A DNA stretch of 64,000 nucleotides from NCBI RefSeq assembly GCF_947496995.1, contig NZ_CANMFD010000001.1:1422692-1486691 (forward strand), written 5' to 3'. The notes under the pieces are model-generated. The model had not been told where the DNA came from and made no database searches. It saw only the letters and a list, made by a program, of their open reading frames with translations. Each line of letters begins with the position of its first letter. Position 1 is the first letter of the stretch. Made by a program: the position numbers and the translations under genes. This document shows, in pieces, positions 36,423-49,175 of this stretch. Source of the stretch: an uncultured Roseibium sp. (lineage in GTDB: Bacteria > Pseudomonadota > Alphaproteobacteria > Rhizobiales > Stappiaceae).

Positions 36423-37118
36423 TCACACCGTCAGAAAGCGTCTGACTTCGGTTTCCGACAGATCCGCGCCGGTCCCCGACAGAACGATCTCGCCCCTGTC
36501 CATAACCGCATAGTCGTCCGCGAGGTCCCGGGCGAATTCGAAATACTGTTCCACCAGCACGATCGCCATGGTGCCCTGGTCACGCAGCCAGGAAATCGCC
36601 CTGCCGATATCCTTGATGATCGAGGGTTGAATGCCTTCTGTCGGTTCGTCCAGCACAAGCAGTTTCGGCCGGGTCACCAGCGCCCTGGCGATGGCGAGCT
36701 GCTGCTGCTGTCCGCCGGAAAGATCGCCACCCCGGCGGCCCAGCATATCCTTCAGCACCGGGAAGAGCTCGAAGATGGTCTCGGGGATGAACCGGTCCCG
36801 GCGGGCGATCGGCGCATAGCCGGTCTCGAGGTTCTCCTTTACCGACAGCAGCGGGAAGACTTCCCGGCCCTGCGGAACAATGGCGATGCCCTTTCGGGCA
36901 CGGGCATGGGCGGGCAGGGAGGAGATGTCTTCCCCGTTCCAGACGATCCTGCCGGACGAGATACCGTGCTGACCGGCGACGGCACGCAAGGTGGACGTCT
37001 TGCCGACGCCGTTGCGGCCCATCAGGCAGGTGACCTTGCCGGTCTCGGCAGTGAGGGACACGCTTTTGAGAGCCTGGGCAGCGCCGTAGAAGAGATCGAT
37101 ATTGTCAACTTGCAACAT
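36423..37118 (-). CDS. urtE: Urea ABC transporter ATPase UrtE
   Basis: 231 residues from ATG 37118. ABC motifs: Walker A GRNGVGKTS, signature LSGGQQQQLAIARAL, Walker B LLVLDEPTEGIQP. The LivF-like type with QGREVFPLLSVKENLETG is UrtE. It drives urea import with UrtD through UrtBC. Fifth gene of urtABCDE. Confidence 0.95.
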   Translation of the reverse strand: MLQVDNIDLFYGAAQALKSVSLTAETGKVTCLMGRNGVGKTSTLRAVAGQHGISSGRIVWNGEDISSLPAHARARKGIAIVPQGREVFPLLSVKENLETGYAPIARRDRFIPETIFELFPVLKDMLGRRGGDLSGGQQQQLAIARALVTRPKLLVLDEPTEGIQPSIIKDIGRAISWLRDQGTMAIVLVEQYFEFARDLADDYAVMDRGEIVLSGTGADLSETEVRRFLTV

Positions 37119-37218
37119 GGGTTCTGACCTAACGGACACAATATCCTGGAAGGAGTTCCGGACTCTGTGTTTCAATTCGTTTTCGGGGAGGAAGGTGGGC
37201 GGAATTCATGCCTGACAG

Positions 37219-37965
37219 TCACCGTCCCAGATAAACTTCGACGACCCGATCATTGGCTGAGACGTGGTCGAGGGATCCTTCGGCAAGGACGGAGCCTTCG
37301 TGGAGGACCGTGACCTTGACGCCCAGGGAACGCACAAACACCATGTCGTGCTCGACCACGACGACTGAGTGATCATTGGCAATATCCTTCAACAATTCTG
37401 CTGTTTCCGCGGTTTCGGCATCGGTCATGCCGGCTGCCGGTTCGTCGACAAGAAGCAGTTTCGGGTCCTGCGCCAGCAGCATGCCGATTTCCAGCCACTG
37501 CTTTTGACCGTGGCTGAGATTGGCGGCAAGCTCGCCGCGTTTGCCGCCAAGGCGAATAAGCTCAAGCAGATACTCGATCCGCTTCTTTTCGGCGCCGGAA
37601 ATGACATGGAAGAGGGTCGCGAATGGCCCGCGCGGGGCCTTCAACGCCAATTCCAGGTTGTCCCAGACCGTGTGGCTCTCGAAGACTGTCGGTTTCTGGA
37701 ACTTTCGGCCGATGCCCAGTTCCGCGATGGAGGCTTCGTCCTCGCCGGTAAGATCGACGGTGCCGTTGAAAAACACCTCGCCGCTGTCCGGCCGCGTCTT
37801 GCCGGTGATGACGTCCATCATGGTGGTTTTTCCGGCGCCGTTCGGACCGATGATGGCGCGCATTTCGCCGGGCCCGATGGTCAGCGACAGCTCGTTCAGC
37901 GCCTTGAAGCCGTCGAAGGAGACCGACACGCCATCGAGATAAAGAAGACTGCTTGATCTGGCCAT
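37219..37965 (-). CDS. urtD: Urea ABC transporter ATPase UrtD
   Basis: 248 residues. Walker A GPNGAGKTTMMDVITG, signature LSHGQKQWLEIGMLL (as in LivG/UrtD), Walker B LLLVDEPAAGMTD. Fourth gene; the urtE start lies 101 bases beyond its stop. The ATG is 5 bases after urtC ends. Confidence 0.96.
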   Translation of the reverse strand: MARSSSLLYLDGVSVSFDGFKALNELSLTIGPGEMRAIIGPNGAGKTTMMDVITGKTRPDSGEVFFNGTVDLTGEDEASIAELGIGRKFQKPTVFESHTVWDNLELALKAPRGPFATLFHVISGAEKKRIEYLLELIRLGGKRGELAANLSHGQKQWLEIGMLLAQDPKLLLVDEPAAGMTDAETAETAELLKDIANDHSVVVVEHDMVFVRSLGVKVTVLHEGSVLAEGSLDHVSANDRVVEVYLGR

Positions 37966-37969
37966 GGGT

Positions 37970-39199
37970 CTACTCCGCTGGCTGGGGTTCGGCCGCGCCC
38001 GGCGCCCGCTTCGAATGAGTCACATTGGCAGGTGCGCCGGGCGAATGCGGGGGTGCGGAAGGCGGCTCGTCCGATCCCTCTTCATAGGCGGCGGACACCT
38101 TGCGCTGCCGGAGAGCCGTCCAGCCCTGGCTGACCGTGCCGACGATGCCCTTGGGCAGGAACAGCGTGACGAACACGAAGAGGCCTCCGAGGGCAAAGAG
38201 CCAGATATCGGGCAGGGCACCGGTGAACCATGTCTTGGCGAAATTCACCAGAACCGCGCCGAGCACCGCACCCACCAGCGTGCCGCGTCCACCGACGGCG
38301 ACCCAGATCACCACTTCGATGGAATTGGCCGGGGCGAATTCGCCCGGATTGATGATGCCGACCTGCGGCACGTAAAGCGCGCCGGCTATTCCCGCCATCA
38401 TGGCGGACAGCGTCCACACGAACAGCTTGTAGTGTTCGACCCGGTAGCCGAGAAAGCGGGTCCGGCTTTCTGCGTCGCGCACGGCGACCAGAACCTTGCC
38501 GAGCTTGGAGCGGGTCAGCGCCCGGCAGACGATGAAACACAGGACCAGCGCCACACCCGAGGCTGCGAACAGGCCGGCGCGGGTCGTGTCGGCCTGAATG
38601 TCGAAGCCGAGGATGTCCTTGAAATCGGTCAGGCCGTTGTTGCCGCCAAAACCCATGTCATTGCGGAAGAAGGCAAGCAGGAGCGCATAGGTGAGCGCCT
38701 GGGTGATGATCGACAGATAAACGCCGGTGACCCGAGAGCGGAAGGCGAACCAGCCGAAGACGAAGGCCAGAAAGCCGGGCACCAGCAGCACCATCAGGGC
38801 GGCGAACCAGAACATGTCGAAGCCGTACCAGTACCACGGCAGTTCCTGCCAGTTCAGGAACACCATGAAATCCGGCAGGTTCGGATCGCCATAGACGCCG
38901 CGCGTGCCGATCTGGCGCATCAGGTACATGCCCATGGCATAGCCGCCGAGGGCGAAGAAGGCGGCATGACCGAGCGAGAGGATGCCGCAATAGCCCCAGA
39001 CGAGATCCACCGCGAGCGCCAGCAGGGCATAGGTCAGATATTTGCCCATCAGGGTGACGGCGTAGTTCGGCACATGGAAGGCGGAGCCTTCCGGAGCCAG
39101 GAGGTTTCCGGCCGGAACCAGGATGATCACCGCGGCCATGATCGCCAGGAAGATCCCTGCACGGGTGTCCATGGCGCGGAAGAGAAAGGAAGTCATCAT
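37970..39199 (-). CDS. urtC: Urea ABC transporter permease UrtC
   Basis: 409 residues, branched-chain/LivM-type permease with ten or so helices, a YLTYALLALAVDLVWGYCG start motif and a C-terminal hydrophilic tail (APANVTHSKRAPGAAEPQPAE). It overlaps the urtB stop by 4 bases (ATGA). Confidence 0.96.
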   Translation of the reverse strand: MMTSFLFRAMDTRAGIFLAIMAAVIILVPAGNLLAPEGSAFHVPNYAVTLMGKYLTYALLALAVDLVWGYCGILSLGHAAFFALGGYAMGMYLMRQIGTRGVYGDPNLPDFMVFLNWQELPWYWYGFDMFWFAALMVLLVPGFLAFVFGWFAFRSRVTGVYLSIITQALTYALLLAFFRNDMGFGGNNGLTDFKDILGFDIQADTTRAGLFAASGVALVLCFIVCRALTRSKLGKVLVAVRDAESRTRFLGYRVEHYKLFVWTLSAMMAGIAGALYVPQVGIINPGEFAPANSIEVVIWVAVGGRGTLVGAVLGAVLVNFAKTWFTGALPDIWLFALGGLFVFVTLFLPKGIVGTVSQGWTALRQRKVSAAYEEGSDEPPSAPPHSPGAPANVTHSKRAPGAAEPQPAE

Positions 39200-40818
39200 G
39201 CTTCAACTGCCCGGCCCTTGAGGGCGAACAGCCCCCGCGGACGCTTTTGAATAAAGAGAATGATGATCACGAGCACGAAGATCTTGCCGAGCACGGCGCC
39301 TGCGTAAGGCTCGAGGAACTTGTTGACGATGCCCAGTGTCATGGCGCCCACAAGTGTGCCCCAAAGATTGCCGACACCGCCAAAGACCACGACCATGAAA
39401 CTGTCGATGATGTAGCCCTGGCCGAGGTTCGGCGAAACGTTGTCGATCTGCGACAGCGCGACACCGGCGATCCCGGCGATGCCCGACCCGAGGCCGAATG
39501 TCATCGCATCGACCCAGGGCGTGCGGATGCCCATGGAGGCGGCCATGCGCCGGTTCTGTGTCACGGCACGGGTGTAAAGCCCGAACGGTGTCTTCTTCAG
39601 CACCAGCATCAGCCCGGCGAAGACCAGCATCGCAAAGACGATGATCCACATGCGGTTATAGGTGATGGTCATCTGGCCAAGTTCGAAAGCCCCGGACATC
39701 CAGTCCGGATTGCCTACTTCCCGGTTGGTCGGCCCGAAGATCGAGCGCACCGCCTGCTGCAGGATCAGGGAAATCCCCCAGGTGGCGAGCAGGGTTTCCA
39801 GCGGGCGTCCGTAGAGCCAGCGGATGACGCCGCGCTCAATGGCGACGCCGATGAGCCCGGACGTCAGGAAGGCCAGCGGCAGGGCGATCAGGAGGGAGTA
39901 GTCGAAAAGCCCCGGAGCCGAGGTGCGGATCAGTTCCTGCACCACGAAGGTCACATAGGCGCCGATCATCACCATCTCGCCATGGGCCATGTTGATGACC
40001 CCCATGACGCCGAAGGTGATCGCCAGGCCGATGGCTGCCAGCAACAGCACCGAGCCGAGGGACAGTCCGTACCAGATGTTCTGGGCCGCATCCCATGCGG
40101 CGATGGATTTCTGGATCTTGGTAACGGCCTGCGTTGCCGCATCGCGCACCGCGCCGCCGGCACTCGACTGGACGCCGATCAGGAGAGACAGGGCATCCCG
40201 GTTGCCCATCACCGAAAGCGTCTCGATCGCCTCCAGTTTCCGGGCGTCGTCCAGATCGGAGTTCAGGACGGCTGCCGCCCTGGCTTCCTCCATCACCTTG
40301 CGCACGCCGTCATCGGTTTCCGCCGCAAGCGCCGCATCCAGCGCTTCGATGCCCTCCGGATCCCGCGCCTTGAAGATTGCCTCAGCGGCAGTCATCCGCA
40401 CCTGCGGATCCGCCGCCATCAGTGTGAGCGAACCCAGCGCCGAGCGCAGCACACGCCGCAGCTTGTTGTTGACCTTGATCTTGGACACTTCGCGGCGGCC
40501 AGCCTCTCCAGCCGGTTCCAGCGTCAGCGGATCGGTGAGCGCGTAGCCCTTGCCGGCTTTTTTGGCGATGAACACCGCCCCGTCCGACTTGCGGGCATAA
40601 AGATCCCCCTCGCCAAGCGCTTCAAGCGCCGGGGCAACCGCAGGATCCCCGGTGGCGACCAATGCGCCGATCTGCTTCTCGGTTTCGGCGTATTTGCCTT
40701 CGGCCAGCCCGTTGATCAGCGGCCGCAGGGCCTCCGGATCTGACTGGGCGAAGGACGGCCCGCTTAAAGTGCAGATCATCAGGCCGATAAGCAGGAAGAA
40801 TGACTTCAGAAGGGACAT
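39196..40818 (-). CDS. urtB: Urea ABC transporter permease UrtB
   Basis: 540 residues from ATG 40818 (AAGGCGGA ribosome site). A signal peptide, then about 250 residues of alpha-helical repeat (LINGLAEGKYAETEKQIGAL and later repeats), then a LivH-type permease (GVMGVINMAHGEMVMIGAY). The long periplasmic N-terminal part is the UrtB hallmark compared with LivH. It lies behind the 37-bp inverted repeat at 40871-41030. Confidence 0.96.
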   Translation of the reverse strand: MSLLKSFFLLIGLMICTLSGPSFAQSDPEALRPLINGLAEGKYAETEKQIGALVATGDPAVAPALEALGEGDLYARKSDGAVFIAKKAGKGYALTDPLTLEPAGEAGRREVSKIKVNNKLRRVLRSALGSLTLMAADPQVRMTAAEAIFKARDPEGIEALDAALAAETDDGVRKVMEEARAAAVLNSDLDDARKLEAIETLSVMGNRDALSLLIGVQSSAGGAVRDAATQAVTKIQKSIAAWDAAQNIWYGLSLGSVLLLAAIGLAITFGVMGVINMAHGEMVMIGAYVTFVVQELIRTSAPGLFDYSLLIALPLAFLTSGLIGVAIERGVIRWLYGRPLETLLATWGISLILQQAVRSIFGPTNREVGNPDWMSGAFELGQMTITYNRMWIIVFAMLVFAGLMLVLKKTPFGLYTRAVTQNRRMAASMGIRTPWVDAMTFGLGSGIAGIAGVALSQIDNVSPNLGQGYIIDSFMVVVFGGVGNLWGTLVGAMTLGIVNKFLEPYAGAVLGKIFVLVIIILFIQKRPRGLFALKGRAVEA

Positions 40819-40870
40819 CGTGTCCGCCTTGCGAGGGTTTGTTTGCATGTTGCTCGAGGGGTTCGAAGGA

Positions 40871-41030
40871 ACCCCCACCCCTAACCCCTCCCCACAAGGG
40901 GGAGGGGGATCTGGCCTTGCCTGTTGAGACCGTCCTACCCGACCAGCCTCGCTATTAGAAAAGCAGGAGGCAGTTGGCGGCTTCAGCCTGGTTCCCCTCC
41001 CCCTTGTGGGGAGGGGTTAGGGGTGGGGGT
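40871..41030. repeat. 37-bp perfect inverted repeat between urtA and urtB
   Basis: Left arm 40871-40907 begins ACCCCCACCCCTAACCCC and ends AGGGGGAGGGG; right arm 40994-41030 is its exact reverse complement, with an 86-base spacer. Each arm also folds on itself (CCCCTCCCC and GGGGGAGGGG around ACAA). It would form a large stem after urtA and reduce read-through to urtB. Similar C-rich repeats occur in several alphaproteobacteria. Confidence 0.8.
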
Positions 41031-41095: not shown

Positions 41096-42382
41096 TTAGG
41101 AGCCGGAACCGCCGCACTTGCCGGTTGCGGTGTTGAAGTTTCCGCAGGAGAGCGGTGCGCGCCAGTCGGAGATCAGATCCTTGGAGCCGTCCAGATAATC
41201 GGACCACGCATCGCCGACAACGAGGCCGGAGGTTTCCCAGACGGTTTCGAACTGGCCGTCATCCTGGATCTCGCCGATCAGCACCGGCTTGGTGATGTGG
41301 TGGTTCGGCATCATCGCGGAGTAGCCGCCGGTCAGGTTCGGAACGCTGACGCCGACGATGGCATCGATTACCGCGTCCGGATCGGTGGTACCGGCCTTCT
41401 CGACCGCTTCGACCCACATGTTGAAGCCGATGAAGTGGGCTTCCATCGGGTCATTGGTCACCCGGTTGTCGTCACCGACATAGGCCTGCCAGGTTTCGAT
41501 GAATTCGGCATTGGCATCGGTGTCGGCGGACTGGAAGTAGTTCCAGGCGGCCAGGTGGCCGACCAGCGGCGCGGTGTCGAGACCGGCGAGTTCTTCTTCA
41601 CCGACGGAGAAGGCAACGACCGGAATGTCTTCGGCCTTGATGCCGGCGTTGCCGAGTTCCTTGTAGAACGGAACGTTGGCGTCGCCGTTGATGGTGGAGA
41701 CGACGGCGGTCTTCTTGCCGGCGGACCCGAAGGTCTTGATGTCGGACACGATCGTCTGCCAGTCGGAATGACCGAACGGCGTGTAGTTGATCATGATGTC
41801 TTCTTCAGCCACGCCCTTGGACTTCAGGTAGGCTTCGAGGATCTTGTTGGTCGTGCGCGGATAGACATAGTCGGTACCGGCCAGAACCCAGCGCTCGACA
41901 CCTTCTTCGTTCATCAGGTAGTCGACGGCCGGAATGGCCTGCTGGTTCGGAGCGGCGCCTGTGTAGAAGACGTTGCGCTGGCTTTCTTCGCCTTCGTACT
42001 GGACCGGGTAGAAGAGAATGGAATTCAGCTCTTCGAAGACCGGCAGCACGGATTTGCGCGACACGGACGTCCAGCAGCCGAACACGGCATCGACGCCGTT
42101 GACTTCGATCAGCTCACGCGCCTTTTCGGCGAACAGCGGCCAGTCGGAAGCCGGATCGACCACGACAGCCTCAAGCTGCTTGCCGAGAAGGCCGCCCTTC
42201 TTGTTCTGCTCTTCGATGAGCATCAGCATGGCGTCTTTCAGCGTGGTTTCCGAAATCGCCATCGTACCGGACAGCGAATGCAGGATACCCACCTTGATGG
42301 TGTCTTCCTGGGCGGATGCGCCGCCGATGATCGTGGAGGCCAACAGGCCTGTCAGAGCGAGTTTGGTGAAGGTCTTTTTCAT
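41096..42382 (-). CDS. urtA: Urea ABC transporter substrate-binding protein UrtA
   Basis: 428 residues from ATG 42382 (AAGGGG ribosome site). Signal peptide (KLALTGLLASTIIGGASAQ) and a periplasmic binding fold: IKVGILHSLSGTMAISE, FGCWTSVSRKSVLPVFEE and FYPVQYEGEESQRNVFYTGA match UrtA. It delivers urea to UrtBC. The TACGTC/GACGTA dyad lies 110 bases upstream. Confidence 0.97.
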   Translation of the reverse strand: MKKTFTKLALTGLLASTIIGGASAQEDTIKVGILHSLSGTMAISETTLKDAMLMLIEEQNKKGGLLGKQLEAVVVDPASDWPLFAEKARELIEVNGVDAVFGCWTSVSRKSVLPVFEELNSILFYPVQYEGEESQRNVFYTGAAPNQQAIPAVDYLMNEEGVERWVLAGTDYVYPRTTNKILEAYLKSKGVAEEDIMINYTPFGHSDWQTIVSDIKTFGSAGKKTAVVSTINGDANVPFYKELGNAGIKAEDIPVVAFSVGEEELAGLDTAPLVGHLAAWNYFQSADTDANAEFIETWQAYVGDDNRVTNDPMEAHFIGFNMWVEAVEKAGTTDPDAVIDAIVGVSVPNLTGGYSAMMPNHHITKPVLIGEIQDDGQFETVWETSGLVVGDAWSDYLDGSKDLISDWRAPLSCGNFNTATGKCGGSGS

Positions 42383-42491
42383 TGAGTTCCCCTTGTGCAT
42401 GACGCCGCCGGTTCCCGTGCCGGCGGTTGGCGGCTGGAAGGAGTGCCGCTGTCGGGGAAGGATCGTGCGCCGGAACTATCGCGCTGCAACA

Positions 42492-42507
42492 TACGTCGTT
42501 TGACGTA
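42492..42507. promoter_or_regulatory. TACGTC-N4-GACGTA dyad upstream of urtA
   Basis: A perfect inverted repeat of TACGTC with a GTTT spacer, in the divergent region between urtA and the kinase at 42639. LuxR/FixJ-type regulators often bind TACGTA-like dyads; the adjacent response regulator at 48261 is of that type. TACGTG at 42585-42590 is a related half-site. Confidence 0.55.
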
Positions 42508-42638
42508 GTGGGAAAGAAGGTGCCTTCGTCGCGAAAGGCACGGTGTTTTCTCGGCACCCCTAAAACGTTTATTTGCTTTTGAGAATACGTGATATCTTTG
42601 CAATCAACGCCACGATTAGCTTCAGGAAGGCAATCGAA

Positions 42639-44567
42639 ATGACGGACGGTGATATGCGTGTGGGAGGTTCCCTGGCCCCGCAAACGCAAGCGATGCTCAA
42701 CATTCTGCCGGTCGCCATCTATGCCACCGATGTCAGCGGACTTCTGACCTACTTCAATGAGACGGCGGTCGAGTTCTGGGGGGATCGGCCTCAATTGGGG
42801 CACGCGCGATGGTGCGGCTCCTTTAGGATATACGACACGGATGGTCGGGTGGTTCCCCTGGATCAATGTCCGATGGCGCAATGTCTGACCGATGGTCGGG
42901 CGCAGAACGATATTGAACTGGTCATCGAACGGCCGGATGGCAGTTGCCGCTCCGTAATCGTCAACCCGCGCCCGATGTACGACGACGCCGGAGCGATGAT
43001 CGGCGCACTGAACACTATTGCCGATGTGACCGCGGTGCGGCAGGCGGAACAGAATCGCTCCAGGAGCGAGAGCTTCGCCCGGCAGGTGCTGGAACAGAGC
43101 CAGGATTGCATCAAGTTGCTTGATCTCGACGGCCGTCTGCAATCCATCAACCCGTGCGGCGTTGAGGCTCTGGAGATTTCCGACCCGCAATCCGCGGTCG
43201 GGCTCTCGTATTTCGATTTCTGGGAGGGAGAGGATCGCGAGGCGTCGATCGCTGCCACCCGGCAGGCGCTGGAAGAAGGGCAGGGGCGGTTTTCCGCCAC
43301 CTTCACGTCATCCACCGGACGCATGACACGGTGGGATGAGATCATTTCCCCACGCACAGACGAGCGGGGCGAGATGATCGGCTATCTTGTTGTTTCGAGA
43401 GATATCAGCGCCCGCGAACAGGCCACCAGGGAACTGGAAGAAAGGTTGCGGCAGCAAAAGGCGATTGCCGAACTGAGCGCCATGGCCCTCAGGGACGAGA
43501 CGTTGGAAACGACGCTGAACCTGATTGTCGAAAAGATCTCGGAAGTCCTGCATTGTCCGTTGGTGAAGGTCTTGAAGCTTGTTCCCGAAGCGGACGGCCT
43601 GCTTCTTTCCAACGGTGTCGGCTGGCAGGACGGGCTCGTCGGCACGGCGACCGTCGACATCGACGAGGGGTCACAGGCGGGTTTCACCCTCCTGAGCAAG
43701 GACACGGTGGTAGTGGATGACCTGCTTGCCGAAACGCGCTTCAGCGGACCTGACCTTCTCATAGCGCATGGTGTGCGCGGCGGGATCAGTGCGACGATCG
43801 CCGGTCTCGGTTCCAGACCTTACGGCGTGCTTGGCGTTCATACGACCGTATGCCGGAAATTCGGCCCGTCCGAGGTTGAGTTCGTCGCGTCGGCGGCAAA
43901 CATCATCGCAAGCAGGTTTCGTCTCGCCGAGAGCGAGGAACGCAGGCGTCTCATCATCCGGGAGATGGCTCACCGGACCGGGAACCTGATGCAGTTGGTT
44001 TCCTCGATCTTCGAGCAGACCATCCGGTCCACGACTGACATCGAAGATGCCAAGAAATCTTTCGGAAACAGATTGGGGGCCATGGCGCGGGTCAACAACA
44101 GGGTTGTCTCCGACGGTTGGAAATCCACCCGGCTGGTCGAACTCGTTTCGGAGACACTCAGTCCCTTCGAGGGCAGTTTCGATCTGAATGGCCGCGATAT
44201 CGTGTTGCCGTCCGACCTTTGTTTCGACCTCGGGCTGGTGTTGCACGAACTGGCGACCAATTCCGCCAAATATGGCGCTTTTTCCAGCCCCTCGGAGCGG
44301 GTAAAGGTGAATTGGTCAATCGCTGACGGGGAAGACGGCAAGACGCTGACAATCGACTGGGTCGATCCGGGAGGGTCAACCGCCGTGGCATCGACCGGCA
44401 CCGGATTCGGAAGCAAGCTGGTCACGTCCCTGGTCAAGATCAAGTGGCGCGGCAAGTTGTCGATCGAGCTTGGCGAAGCGTATCGGTGCACGATGGAAAT
44501 TCCGATAGCCGCACAGGACGGTCTGGAGACCGGGCAGTCCTGGGCAGTGCAGGTCGCCGCCGAATAA
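42639..44567 (+). CDS. PAS-PAS-GAF sensor kinase, HWE/HisKA_2 type
   Basis: 642 residues from ATG 42639 (AGGAAGG). Two PAS domains (about 20-145 and 155-275), a GAF domain (about 290-420), then a non-classical kinase with acceptor MAHRTGNLMQLVSSI (His445) and N-box LHELATNSAKYGAFS, the HWE/HisKA_2 style. No membrane segment, so cytosolic. Divergent from urtA and next to the permease-kinase, but no cognate regulator is obvious. Ligand unknown. Confidence 0.9.
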   Translation: MTDGDMRVGGSLAPQTQAMLNILPVAIYATDVSGLLTYFNETAVEFWGDRPQLGHARWCGSFRIYDTDGRVVPLDQCPMAQCLTDGRAQNDIELVIERPDGSCRSVIVNPRPMYDDAGAMIGALNTIADVTAVRQAEQNRSRSESFARQVLEQSQDCIKLLDLDGRLQSINPCGVEALEISDPQSAVGLSYFDFWEGEDREASIAATRQALEEGQGRFSATFTSSTGRMTRWDEIISPRTDERGEMIGYLVVSRDISAREQATRELEERLRQQKAIAELSAMALRDETLETTLNLIVEKISEVLHCPLVKVLKLVPEADGLLLSNGVGWQDGLVGTATVDIDEGSQAGFTLLSKDTVVVDDLLAETRFSGPDLLIAHGVRGGISATIAGLGSRPYGVLGVHTTVCRKFGPSEVEFVASAANIIASRFRLAESEERRRLIIREMAHRTGNLMQLVSSIFEQTIRSTTDIEDAKKSFGNRLGAMARVNNRVVSDGWKSTRLVELVSETLSPFEGSFDLNGRDIVLPSDLCFDLGLVLHELATNSAKYGAFSSPSERVKVNWSIADGEDGKTLTIDWVDPGGSTAVASTGTGFGSKLVTSLVKIKWRGKLSIELGEAYRCTMEIPIAAQDGLETGQSWAVQVAAE

Positions 44568-44881: not shown

Positions 44882-47800
44882 ATGACTGCCCGTCAGCGCA
44901 TTCTTCCGGTCCGCCGCCAGTACAACAAGTGGGTCAATAATCAGACCCTCGAGGACTATGCGCTCCGGTTTACCGCCAAAAGCGCGCGCCGTTTTTCCTC
45001 CCGTGCAATTTCGCAGACGGCCATCGGCGCGATCTCCTTTCTGGCCCTGGAGGCCATCGGCGGCGCGATCACGCTGTCACACGGCACCGCCAACGCGTTC
45101 ATCGCCATTCTCGTCGGCAGCCTTGTGCTGCTTATCGTCGGCCTGCCGATCAGTCGCTATGCCATGCGCTACGGCGTCGACATCGATCTTCTGACCCGCG
45201 GCGCCGGTTTCGGCTATATCGGCTCGACGGTCACGTCGCTGATCTATGCCAGCTTCACATTCATCCTCTTCGCCATCGAAGCCTCGATCATGTCGAGCGC
45301 GCTGGAATTCGCCTTCGGCGTGCCGCTCTGGCTCGGGTATATCGTCAGCGCGGTTGCCGTCATTCCGCTGGTGACTCACGGGATCACCTGGATCAGCCGG
45401 TTTCAAATCGCCACCCAGCCATTCTGGATTGTCCTGAACATTCTGCCCTTCTTCTTCATCGCCTTCACCGACTGGCATGCAGTCGGGAGCTGGCTGATGT
45501 TCACCGGCATCGATCCGCTGACGCAGGCGCCGAAAACCGGCCCCGGAGGCTGGGAAAGCGTCAATCTGGTCAGTTTCGGGGCTGCATCGGCGGTCATTCT
45601 CGCGTTGATGGCGCAAATCGGTGAGCAGGTGGACTTCCTGCGCTTTCTGCCGGCCCAGGACTTCGGCCGCCGCCGCCACCGGCTGGCGCTCTTCCTGGCG
45701 GGCCCCGGCTGGGTGGTGCTCGGCGCGCCGAAGATGATCGCCGGATCGTTTCTGGCCGTGCTGGTGCTCTCCCACGGGGTGCCTGTAGAACATGCCGACG
45801 AGCCCTCGCGCATGTATGCGGTCGCCTTCGGTTACATGATCCCCAACGAGACCCTGGTCCTGCTGCTGATGGCGGCCTTTGTCGTCGTTGCCCAGCTCAA
45901 GATCAACGTCATGAACGCCTATGCGGGCTCATTGGCCTGGTCGAATTTCTTCTCCCGTCTGACCCATTCCCATCCGGGCCGGGTGGTCTGGCTGGTGTTC
46001 AACGTCGGCATCGCGCTCCTTCTGATGGAGCTCGGGATCTATCGTCTTCTGGAGGAAACGCTCGGCGTCTTTTCCATCATCGCGATGGCCTGGCTATCCA
46101 CCATTTCGGCCGATCTTTTCATCAACAAGCCGCTCGGCCTGTCGCCGCCCGGTATCGAGTTCAAGAGGGCCCATCTTTACGACATCAATCCTGTCGGCAC
46201 CGGTGCGATGCTGCTTGCTGCGGGCATCGCGCTGGCGGCCCACTTCGGGCAATTCGGAGAGGGCGCCGCGGCGCTGGCAACCTTCCTCGCCATGGCGGTC
46301 GCCTTCATCGCCGCGCCCTTGATCGCCTTTGCCACAGGGGGCCGCTTCTACCTGGCGCGAAAGCCACGCATGAGCTGGCAGCAACTGCAGCATATCGCCT
46401 GTTCGATCTGCGAGAACCCGTTCGAGCCGGAGGACATGGCTTATTGCCCGGCCTATCAGGCGCCCATCTGTTCGCTGTGCTGCACGCTCGACGCCCGCTG
46501 TCATGATTCCTGCAAGCCGAAGGCCCGGTTCACCCATCAGCTCGGCACGGTCGCCGGCTATGTCCTTCCCGAAGCGCTGCTGGTCTATTTCCGCACCCGC
46601 CTCGGGCGCTACGCCCTGATGTCCATCCTGTCGATAGCCTCCATCGGCCTGGTGCTGTGGATCATTTATGGTCAGGCCGCCAGCCGGCTTGGCGACCCGA
46701 CAGGCATCATCGGCCAGACCGTCGCGCTGATCTTCTTCGTCTTTGCCATCGTCGCCGGCATCGCCTGCTGGTTTCTGGTTCTGGCCAACGACACGCGCAG
46801 GGTGGCGGAGGAGGAATCCGCCCGCCAGAATGCGCTTCTGCAGAAGGAAATCGATGCCCACAGCGTGACCGACGCCGCGCTCCAGAAGGCCAAGGAGGAC
46901 GCGGAAGCGGCCAATCTGGCCAAGAGCCGCTATGTGGTCGGCCTCAGCCACGAACTCAGGACGCCGCTCAATGCGGTGATGGGCTATGCCCAGGTGCTGG
47001 AGCGCGACGATACGCTGCCGGCGGCGCGCAAACCCGCCGTCAGCACCATCCGCCGCAGCGCGGAGCATCTCTCCGGCCTGATCGACGGGCTTCTGGATAT
47101 TTCCCGGATCGAGGCCGGGCGTCTGCAGATCTATTCCGACGAAATCAACATTCACGACTTTCTCGACCAGATCGTCGACATGTTCCGCATGCAGGCTGCC
47201 GCCAAGGGGCTCGGGTTCGACTACGTCCGTGCCGCCAACCTGCCGGTCTTTGTCCGTTCGGACGAAAAACGTCTGCGCCAGATCCTGGTCAACCTGCTGT
47301 CCAACGCCATCAAGTTCACACAGGAAGGCAAGGTCTCCCTCACGGTCAGCTACCGCTCGCAGGTCGCGGGCTTCGTCGTCGCCGACAGCGGTCCCGGCAT
47401 CCCGCTGGACGAACAGGCGAAAATCTTCGAGCCCTTCGGGCGCAGCAAGGCGGCCTATGGCGCGCGCACGCCCGGCCTCGGGCTGGGGCTGACAATCACC
47501 AAGCTCCTGGCCGAATCCATGGGCGGTGCAATCGCCCTGTCCAGCGAGCCGGGCGGGGGCGCGTCCTTCGAGGTGCGCCTCATGCTCTCCGCCGTCGACC
47601 GGCCGGTGGACACCGTTCGGCTTGAACGGCAGGTGCGCGGCTATGAAGGCGCACGCCGCACCATCGCGGTCATCGACGACAATTCCGATCACCGAGCGCT
47701 CGTCAGCGATATTCTCAAGCCCGTGGGGTTCGCGGTTGTGGAAGCCGAACACGGCGCGGCCTGTCTTGAACATGTCCAGGGGCTGAACCCGGATCTCTAC

Positions 47801-48271
47801 CTTGTCGACATCCTGATGCCCGGCATGAACGGCTGGGAGCTGGTGGAAACCCTGCGGGCGCGGGGGGACACCGCTCCGATTGTCATGCTTTCAGCCAACA
47901 TCGGCGATCAGGCCTTGCGGCCGGACGGTCCTGTCCACCACAATGCGACCCTCGCCAAACCCTTCACCATCGGCCAGCTTCTCGATCTTCTGCAAAAACA
48001 CCTGGGTGTCGTCTGGACGGAAAAGCCGCAGAAGGCCGATGCGGCGCCGGCCTCCGGCAGCCCGCTGCGCTCTCCGGGTGCCGATCACGTGGCGGACCTT
48101 ATATCACTGGCGGAGATCGGTTATGTGGAGGGGATCGAAGCCAAGTTGAGCGAACTTGCGCAGACACCGGGAAACGGGCCGCTGATCGACACGCTGCACG
48201 AACATCTCAACCGTTTCGACTTCGACGCCTACAGGCACGTGCTCAACGGACTGGAAACCCATGACGGATGA
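44882..48271 (+). CDS. NCS1 permease-like hybrid sensor kinase with eight-cysteine cluster and receiver
   Basis: 1,129 residues from ATG 44882. Residues ~15-480 are an NCS1 purine/cytosine-permease-like membrane domain (NQTLEDYALRFTAKSARRFS start; GSTVTSLIYASFTFILF; about 12 helices). A cysteine cluster, C-X2-C-X11-C-X7-C-X2-CC-X5-C-X3-C, lies at about 507-546. Two further helices, a coiled coil, HisKA (LSHELRTPLN, His690), HATPase (DSGPGIPLD, GLGLGLTI) and a receiver (Asp976 in LVDILMPGMNG) follow, with an ~95-residue tail. The permease is probably a receptor. Its stop overlaps the LuxR-type regulator gene by 11 bases. Urea or a purine/allantoin-type ligand is inferred from the urt neighbours. 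Confidence 0.93.
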   Translation: MTARQRILPVRRQYNKWVNNQTLEDYALRFTAKSARRFSSRAISQTAIGAISFLALEAIGGAITLSHGTANAFIAILVGSLVLLIVGLPISRYAMRYGVDIDLLTRGAGFGYIGSTVTSLIYASFTFILFAIEASIMSSALEFAFGVPLWLGYIVSAVAVIPLVTHGITWISRFQIATQPFWIVLNILPFFFIAFTDWHAVGSWLMFTGIDPLTQAPKTGPGGWESVNLVSFGAASAVILALMAQIGEQVDFLRFLPAQDFGRRRHRLALFLAGPGWVVLGAPKMIAGSFLAVLVLSHGVPVEHADEPSRMYAVAFGYMIPNETLVLLLMAAFVVVAQLKINVMNAYAGSLAWSNFFSRLTHSHPGRVVWLVFNVGIALLLMELGIYRLLEETLGVFSIIAMAWLSTISADLFINKPLGLSPPGIEFKRAHLYDINPVGTGAMLLAAGIALAAHFGQFGEGAAALATFLAMAVAFIAAPLIAFATGGRFYLARKPRMSWQQLQHIACSICENPFEPEDMAYCPAYQAPICSLCCTLDARCHDSCKPKARFTHQLGTVAGYVLPEALLVYFRTRLGRYALMSILSIASIGLVLWIIYGQAASRLGDPTGIIGQTVALIFFVFAIVAGIACWFLVLANDTRRVAEEESARQNALLQKEIDAHSVTDAALQKAKEDAEAANLAKSRYVVGLSHELRTPLNAVMGYAQVLERDDTLPAARKPAVSTIRRSAEHLSGLIDGLLDISRIEAGRLQIYSDEINIHDFLDQIVDMFRMQAAAKGLGFDYVRAANLPVFVRSDEKRLRQILVNLLSNAIKFTQEGKVSLTVSYRSQVAGFVVADSGPGIPLDEQAKIFEPFGRSKAAYGARTPGLGLGLTITKLLAESMGGAIALSSEPGGGASFEVRLMLSAVDRPVDTVRLERQVRGYEGARRTIAVIDDNSDHRALVSDILKPVGFAVVEAEHGAACLEHVQGLNPDLYLVDILMPGMNGWELVETLRARGDTAPIVMLSANIGDQALRPDGPVHHNATLAKPFTIGQLLDLLQKHLGVVWTEKPQKADAAPASGSPLRSPGADHVADLISLAEIGYVEGIEAKLSELAQTPGNGPLIDTLHEHLNRFDFDAYRHVLNGLETHDG

Positions 48272-49175
48272 TCGCCGCGATACGGTCCTGGTGGTGGACG
48301 ACAGCCCGGAGACCCTCGGGTTCGTCACCGAGGCACTGAAAAAGACCGGGATTGCAGTTCTGGTAGCCACCAGCGGCGAAGCGGCGCTCTCCGTATGCGA
48401 GAAGGTGACCCCGGACACCATCCTCATGGATGCGGTGATGCCGGGACTGGATGGCTTCGACACCTGCCGCAACATCAAGGACAATCCTGCACTCCGGCAT
48501 GTCCCGGTCATCTTCATGACCGGGCTTTCGGAAACCGAGCACATCGTGAAGGCGCTGGAATCCGGCGGCGTTGATTTTCTGACAAAGCCCATTGATGTCG
48601 ATGAACTGAAGGCGCGCATCAAGGTTCATCTGAAAAACGCCAGATCCGTTCAGAGCGCCCATGTGGCGCTTGATGCCGCCGGTCGTCACCTTGTGGCCGT
48701 TTCGGCCGATGGCGGCGTGCTGTGGTCGACGCCGCAGATCCGGAACCTTCTGGAAAGGACCGGCGACGCGGAGGCCAGCCTGTTTGCGCTCGGCCGGGCG
48801 CTCGGGGAATGGCTGGACAGCGTCGAGCTTGCGGACGACCGGCGCAAGAGCTTCATGCTCGGCCTGTCGGAGGACCTTGCAGTCCAGCTCCACCCCCTCG
48901 GCCGGGTCGGCCCGGACGAGAATCTCTTCAGGGTGACGGCGGAGGACGAAGCCGGCCAGATCCGCGCCCTGCAGCAGCGCTTCGAACTGACCCAGCGCGA
49001 AGCCGAAGTGCTGATCTGGATCGCCAAGGGCAAGGCCAACAAGGATATCGGCGAAATCCTCGGCCTCTCGCCGCGTACGGTGAACAAGCATCTGGAACAG
49101 ATCTTCGTCAAACTCGGCGTCGAAAACCGGGCCTCCGCTGCGGTCAGGGCCGCGGAAGTGATCTATGCGCTGTGA
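48261..49175 (+). CDS. LuxR/NarL-type response regulator
   Basis: 304 residues. N-terminal receiver (VVDDSPETLG; Asp57 in ILMDAVMPGLDGFD; Lys in FLTKPID), a middle PAS-like stretch (LVAVSADGGVLWSTP), and a C-terminal LuxR HTH (LTQREAEVLIWIAKGKANKD and LSPRTVNKHLEQIF). ATG 48261 overlaps the permease-kinase, so it is the likely partner and DNA-binding output. Probable control of urt or adjacent genes is inferred. Confidence 0.93.
   Translation: MTDDRRDTVLVVDDSPETLGFVTEALKKTGIAVLVATSGEAALSVCEKVTPDTILMDAVMPGLDGFDTCRNIKDNPALRHVPVIFMTGLSETEHIVKALESGGVDFLTKPIDVDELKARIKVHLKNARSVQSAHVALDAAGRHLVAVSADGGVLWSTPQIRNLLERTGDAEASLFALGRALGEWLDSVELADDRRKSFMLGLSEDLAVQLHPLGRVGPDENLFRVTAEDEAGQIRALQQRFELTQREAEVLIWIAKGKANKDIGEILGLSPRTVNKHLEQIFVKLGVENRASAAVRAAEVIYAL

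Follow-up and report, generated by a model that had tools for sequence, protein, structure and literature searches.

The window analyzed here, a 64,000-nucleotide stretch of the genome of an uncultured Roseibium sp. (contig NZ_CANMFD010000001.1, positions 1,422,692 to 1,486,691), carries at 44882-48271 of the plus strand a gene whose translation contains no inner stops and yields a protein of 1,129 amino acids. We found that this protein joins an NCS1-like transporter part, an eight-cysteine module, two hydrophobic helices and a hybrid histidine kinase, and that it is encoded next to the genes of the urea ABC transporter Urt. An earlier, sequence-only reading had already named these parts; the frame and the spacing of the cysteines are borne out by the translation, and the helices, kinase and receiver by Pfam, a structure model and hydropathy.

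Domain composition and NCS1 kinship

The features of the gene are as follows (window coordinates, strand):

44882..48271, plus: hybrid histidine kinase of 1,129 aa with an NCS1-like part, proposed transceptor (translation, domains, homologues)
44882..46366, plus: NCS1-type (LeuT-fold) transporter domain, residues 1-495, probable receptor (Foldseek, hhalign, bridge protein L150)
46400..46516, plus: eight-cysteine module, residues 507-545, treble-clef-like, probably with two putative zinc sites
46598..46798, plus: two further membrane helices, residues 573-639, the second extending into a helical linker to the kinase (model, hydropathy)
46922..47119, plus: HisKA, phospho-acceptor His690 (Pfam)
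47261..47587, plus: HATPase_c (Pfam)
47663..47992, plus: receiver domain, Asp976 (Pfam)

The Pfam search of the translated frame returned only HisKA (residues 681-746), HATPase_c (794-902) and Response_reg (928-1037) above the cut-offs. With a HisKA domain that retains its histidine, an HATPase_c domain and a receiver that retains its aspartate, the protein is a hybrid sensor histidine kinase; His690 and Asp976 are each present in 107/107 kinase rows. Between the cysteines and the kinase, the structure model and hydropathy place one hydrophobic helix at residues 573-603 and the second from about residue 605. The C-terminal stretch past the receiver (residues 1050-1129, window 48029-48268, ISLAEIGYVEGIEAKL) is without a Pfam match.

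The N-terminal part had been described as a purine/cytosine-type permease. Its fold and distant kinship agree with this, but it falls outside the Pfam family: with the limit set at E 10, PF02133 matched neither the transporter part of the window protein nor four stand-alone relatives (L026, L143, L145 and L146), let alone at its curated cut-off, a null narrowed by the HMMER filters, which drop most matches above E of about 0.1. The structure model, which covers residues 1-680 and rests on an alignment of 36 sequences (mean pLDDT 78.4, pTM 0.78), retrieved the NCS1 transporters Mhp1 and CodB at Foldseek ranks 1-4 (E 6.7e-9 to 3.2e-7), headed by Mhp1 2jln (E 6.7e-9) and CodB 7qoa (E 1.3e-8), at 14-21% identity to the N-terminal domain, followed with weaker scores by other transporters of the LeuT fold, among them those for sialic acid and amino acids. 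Mhp1 and CodB are not known to possess a kinase or a cysteine tail. Comparison by hhalign, with small profiles (4 NCS1, 12 SSF and 21 own rows), gave 96.8% (global) and 94.8% (local) against NCS1 and 0.1% and 2.5%, respectively, against the SSF control. Moreover, a 497-aa bridge protein (L150) shares 27.7% identity with the window protein and matches PF02133 at E 3.6e-9. By the Foldseek, hhalign and bridge-protein results, the transporter part resembles NCS1 transporters in fold and is remotely homologous to them, while standing outside the Pfam model. An SLC5/SSF transporter domain was considered and rejected, given the absence of an SSF match in the window protein and hhalign values to SSF of at most 2.5%.

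The eight-cysteine module

The cysteines at positions 507, 510, 522, 530, 533, 534, 540 and 544 form the pattern C-X2-C-X11-C-X7-C-X2-CC-X5-C-X3-C, and only two others, Cys629 and Cys961, occur elsewhere in the protein. All eight are retained in 153/153 distinct kinase rows, while Cys629 and Cys961 vary among homologues, which argues that the cluster is not a chance feature; the free variation that would have spoken against the sequence-only reading is not seen among kinase homologues. That reading had placed the cluster between transporter and kinase. Rather than an insert there, the module is the cytosolic C-terminal tail of an NCS1-like permease subfamily and is not kinase-specific, as it is also present in stand-alone, kinase-free permeases: of the 11 examined, the full set of eight cysteines is present in two, four or five remain in six, and a single one is left in three, the surrounding tail still being recognizable in the latter.

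Four stand-alone permeases jointly lack the same four cysteines, those presumed to form a second site. This joint loss and the weak resemblance of the modeled module to treble-clef zinc fingers weakly favor two structural zinc sites, probably {507,510,530,533} and {522,534,540,544}, over the metal or redox input suggested earlier. We consider it unlikely that the module is itself a sensor (of zinc or nickel, redox state, or through an Fe-S cluster) and serves as a second input to the kinase, for example by tying urea uptake to the nickel of urease. The full set does seem to be needed in the kinases, all of which keep it, whereas 9/11 stand-alone permeases have lost at least three cysteines and both permeases that keep all eight adjoin a kinase gene. 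Yet these two proteins are kinase-free themselves, and the concerted disappearance of the presumed second-site residues in four permeases, with a single cysteine left in three more, is as happens with structural zinc sites; the model also bears a weak resemblance to treble-clef zinc fingers. One Acinetobacter baumannii record (L190) carries a kinase form as well as a stand-alone permease inside 17.6 kb; this record and L192 have no annotation.

Gene neighborhoods, stand-alone relatives and a shared palindrome

The neighbors of the kinase gene in the window are listed below:

48261..49175, plus: LuxR/GerE-type response regulator, probable partner, overlapping the kinase gene by 11 bp (Pfam; position)
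42492..42507, no strand: palindrome TACGTCGTTTGACGTA, probable (putative) regulator binding site, at a distance of 92 bp from where urtA is listed to start
41096..42400, minus: urtA, binding protein of the urea ABC transporter (NCBIfam TIGR03407, over its cut-off)
39196..40878, minus: urtB (NCBIfam TIGR03409, over its cut-off)
37970..39199, minus: urtC (gene scan)
37219..37965, minus: urtD (74% identity to the annotated UrtD of Shinella L025)
36423..37175, minus: urtE (66% identity to the annotated UrtE of Shinella L025)

The urtA-E genes thus run opposite to the kinase gene, starting from 42400. A gene for a PAS-GAF-HWE histidine kinase (42573-44567) sits between urtA and the NCS1 kinase; none of the other scanned loci showed a counterpart of it over the cut-offs. 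From its start to urtA the DNA contains the palindrome at 42492, which a terminator-like hairpin (window 42520-42541) adjoins upstream of urtA.

We compared the neighborhoods of the best 80 of 589 confirmed loci. A UrtA homologue (urea/amide ABC type) is encoded upstream on the opposite strand, divergent from the kinase, in 76/80 loci, and a LuxR-type regulator downstream of the kinase in 79/80; contig ends cut three of the loci without UrtA (L072, L080, L106) and the one without the regulator (L105), while L075, a kinase locus without urt genes nearby, is uncut. The best UrtA match is urea-type in 52 loci and Fmd-type in 24; fmdA is found in 20 loci and amiE in 10, every one Fmd-type. The source genome, which also encodes urease, possesses two such kinases, the urea-type window copy and a second one (L149) on another contig, beside Fmd-type ABC genes and fmdA. 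Among named organisms, the nearest relatives, Labrenzia sp. 011 and two Roseibium (L043, L031, L032), have the permease part beside urt genes at the same locus, so that the refuting condition of the earlier reading, loss of this part in close relatives, did not arise; the searches used the transporter part, and kinases lacking it would be invisible to them. Plasmid records that hold the transporter part number 532, of which 342 are from Klebsiella (records, not distinct proteins); in both Klebsiella plasmid records examined, urt and formamidase genes adjoin it. In a Tistrella locus (L029, 9821), the kinase, regulator and palindrome are present and urt genes are not nearby.

The stand-alone relatives point to urea or short-chain amides. 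They are found in urease clusters of Klebsiella (L141) and Acinetobacter (L026), beside fmdA in Moraxella (L142) and Tsukamurella (L145), beside amiE and acs (acetate-CoA ligase) in Arthrobacter (L144), and together with the kinase, fmdA and amiE in Methylovirgula (L146); no urease, formamidase or amidase neighbor was seen for the Streptomyces and Arthrobacter copies L143 and L191. Seventy-nine positions are invariant both in the kinases (at least 97% of 162 rows) and in each of the 11 stand-alone sequences, as would fit ligands of one common class. The Klebsiella relative that follows the urease cluster (L141 8956-10563) is annotated as 'cytosine permease', though a urea permease seems more likely.

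Such annotations, 'allantoin permease' or 'cytosine permease' among the relatives, together with the NCS1 fold and remote kinship and with hydantoinase-type genes some kb away in Shinella L025, would be in line with a receptor for allantoin-, purine- or hydantoin-like compounds, for which urea is only a breakdown product. We regard this as improbable, since permeases and kinases repeatedly accompany urease, formamidase, amidase and urt genes and PF02133 is not matched; urea, formamide or acetamide is a more likely ligand than allantoin, purines or hydantoins. Least probable is that the transporter-like domain has no ligand of its own and monitors UrtABCDE, as BceS-type kinases monitor their ABC transporter: ABC transporter genes do lie near the kinase gene in the 76 loci, but polar core positions are common to kinases and stand-alone permeases, and the Tistrella and L075 kinases have no urt genes nearby.

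A dyad search of the DNA between urtA and the kinase gene detected TACGT-N6-ACGTA in 21/24 urea-type stretches and ATACG-N8-CGTAT in 18/27 Fmd-type ones, whereas no dyad exceeded 2 in any of 10 shuffles. Across the 80 loci (1.46 Mb) there are 75 sites of the pattern TACGY-N6-RCGTA, of which 73 lie at most 300 bp from the start of urtA, fmdA, amiE or the kinase gene; single-base shuffles of the same DNA contained 4.75 on average and at most 7. It precedes urtA in 52/52 urea-type loci; in 29 of them urtA is at least 700 bp from the kinase gene, so that there the palindrome keeps to urtA. Fmd-type loci carry it in 15/24 cases, and 8/9 of the remaining ones have a one-mismatch form at most 400 bp from the kinase; it was found before fmdA in 3/20 and before amiE in 0/10. 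These counts come from the same loci in which the pattern was discovered.

Among 65 further kinase upstream regions of 400 bp, some of them perhaps from species already represented in the 80 loci, 39 have the exact palindrome and six a form with one mismatch (0.2% and 2.3% in shuffles), while 20 show at least two mismatches, including that of the second copy in the source genome. The upstream region of this copy, L149, is accordingly without the palindrome. The source genome as a whole has it at three places, including 42492-42507, against 24 for the reversed-pattern control. We also compared upstream regions of urtA (the 30 best of 66 matches in 289 genomes): the palindrome, counted up to one mismatch, is absent from all 18 regions of kinase-free genomes and present in 3/12 of kinase-bearing ones, two of them unlinked to the kinase. 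In Methylovirgula it precedes fmdA and amiE, and in L187 it lies between a kinase and a stand-alone permease. With it, the putative regulon can be searched for.

Proposed mechanism and known systems

The neighboring genes, the stand-alone relatives and the palindrome shared by urt and fmd promoters speak for urea or short-chain amides as the ligand, and they support the earlier suggestion that the transporter part is probably the receptor. We propose, with a probability of roughly two in three, that the protein is a transceptor kinase for such a compound that controls the urt/fmd genes. The NCS1-type domain would bind, and perhaps also carry, urea or a related short-chain amide, and binding or cycling would shift the last transporter helices. 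The cytosolic treble-clef module, presumably with two zinc ions and positioned between the transporter and the extra helices, may pass this movement to the HisKA/HATPase kinase. Phosphorylation would begin at His690 and go on to the built-in receiver or straight to the LuxR-type regulator. The regulator would bind TACGY-N6-RCGTA in front of urtA, and in some relatives in front of fmdA, amiE or a stand-alone permease gene as well, and would induce the genes that take up and use the compound.

Few transporter-kinase fusions have been described, and their mode of coupling is an open question (PMC13022988). CbrA, described in that paper, links an SLC5 transporter domain to a histidine kinase via a cytosolic linker domain, with nutrient-use genes as targets; CrbS belongs to the same SLC5-STAC class. 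The window kinase shares this plan, but its transporter is NCS1-type, the cysteine module and two helices stand where CbrA has STAC and PAS, the receiver is built in, and the LuxR-type regulator and urea/amide genes adjoin it. STAC gave no Pfam match in the linker of the window protein and was not looked for structurally. Ks-Amt5 (PMC5764959) is an ammonium transporter-histidine kinase that binds ammonium and has lost transport; it likewise reuses an uptake transporter, fused to a HisKA kinase, as a sensor of a nitrogen compound. It differs in its Amt fold, in a ligand that was demonstrated and is here only predicted, and in that the excerpted description mentions no cysteine module.

In Methylophilus methylotrophus, formamide and urea induce the fmdCABDEF genes for short-chain amide/urea uptake and formamidase, and the portion of PMC10781810 consulted names only a putative positive regulator. 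The accessible sections of PMC13209695 and PMC13060141 deal with urt/formamidase clusters without the term 'histidine kinase'; those of the latter, on a Klebsiella cluster, do not use 'two-component' either. An NCS1-type transporter-kinase was not described among the matches listed in the literature searched. The kinase is a testable candidate sensor behind the induction of urea and amide uptake genes. A broader view is more tentative, and we would not yet favor it as a whole: NCS1-type transceptor kinases would form a widespread family with its own operator and be the sensor of urea and short-chain amides that has been missing in alpha-, beta- and gammaproteobacteria; their treble-clef tail with two zinc ions, which a permease subfamily also has, would move to couple the transporter to the kinase and might add a zinc or nickel input.

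With many members, a defined linker module and kinase-free relatives, the family allows direct comparison. Short kinase forms without a receiver are encoded in two loci with fmdA (L147 5499-8156 and L148 5663-8347), where the permease-cysteine unit of the window kinase is carried on a different kinase.
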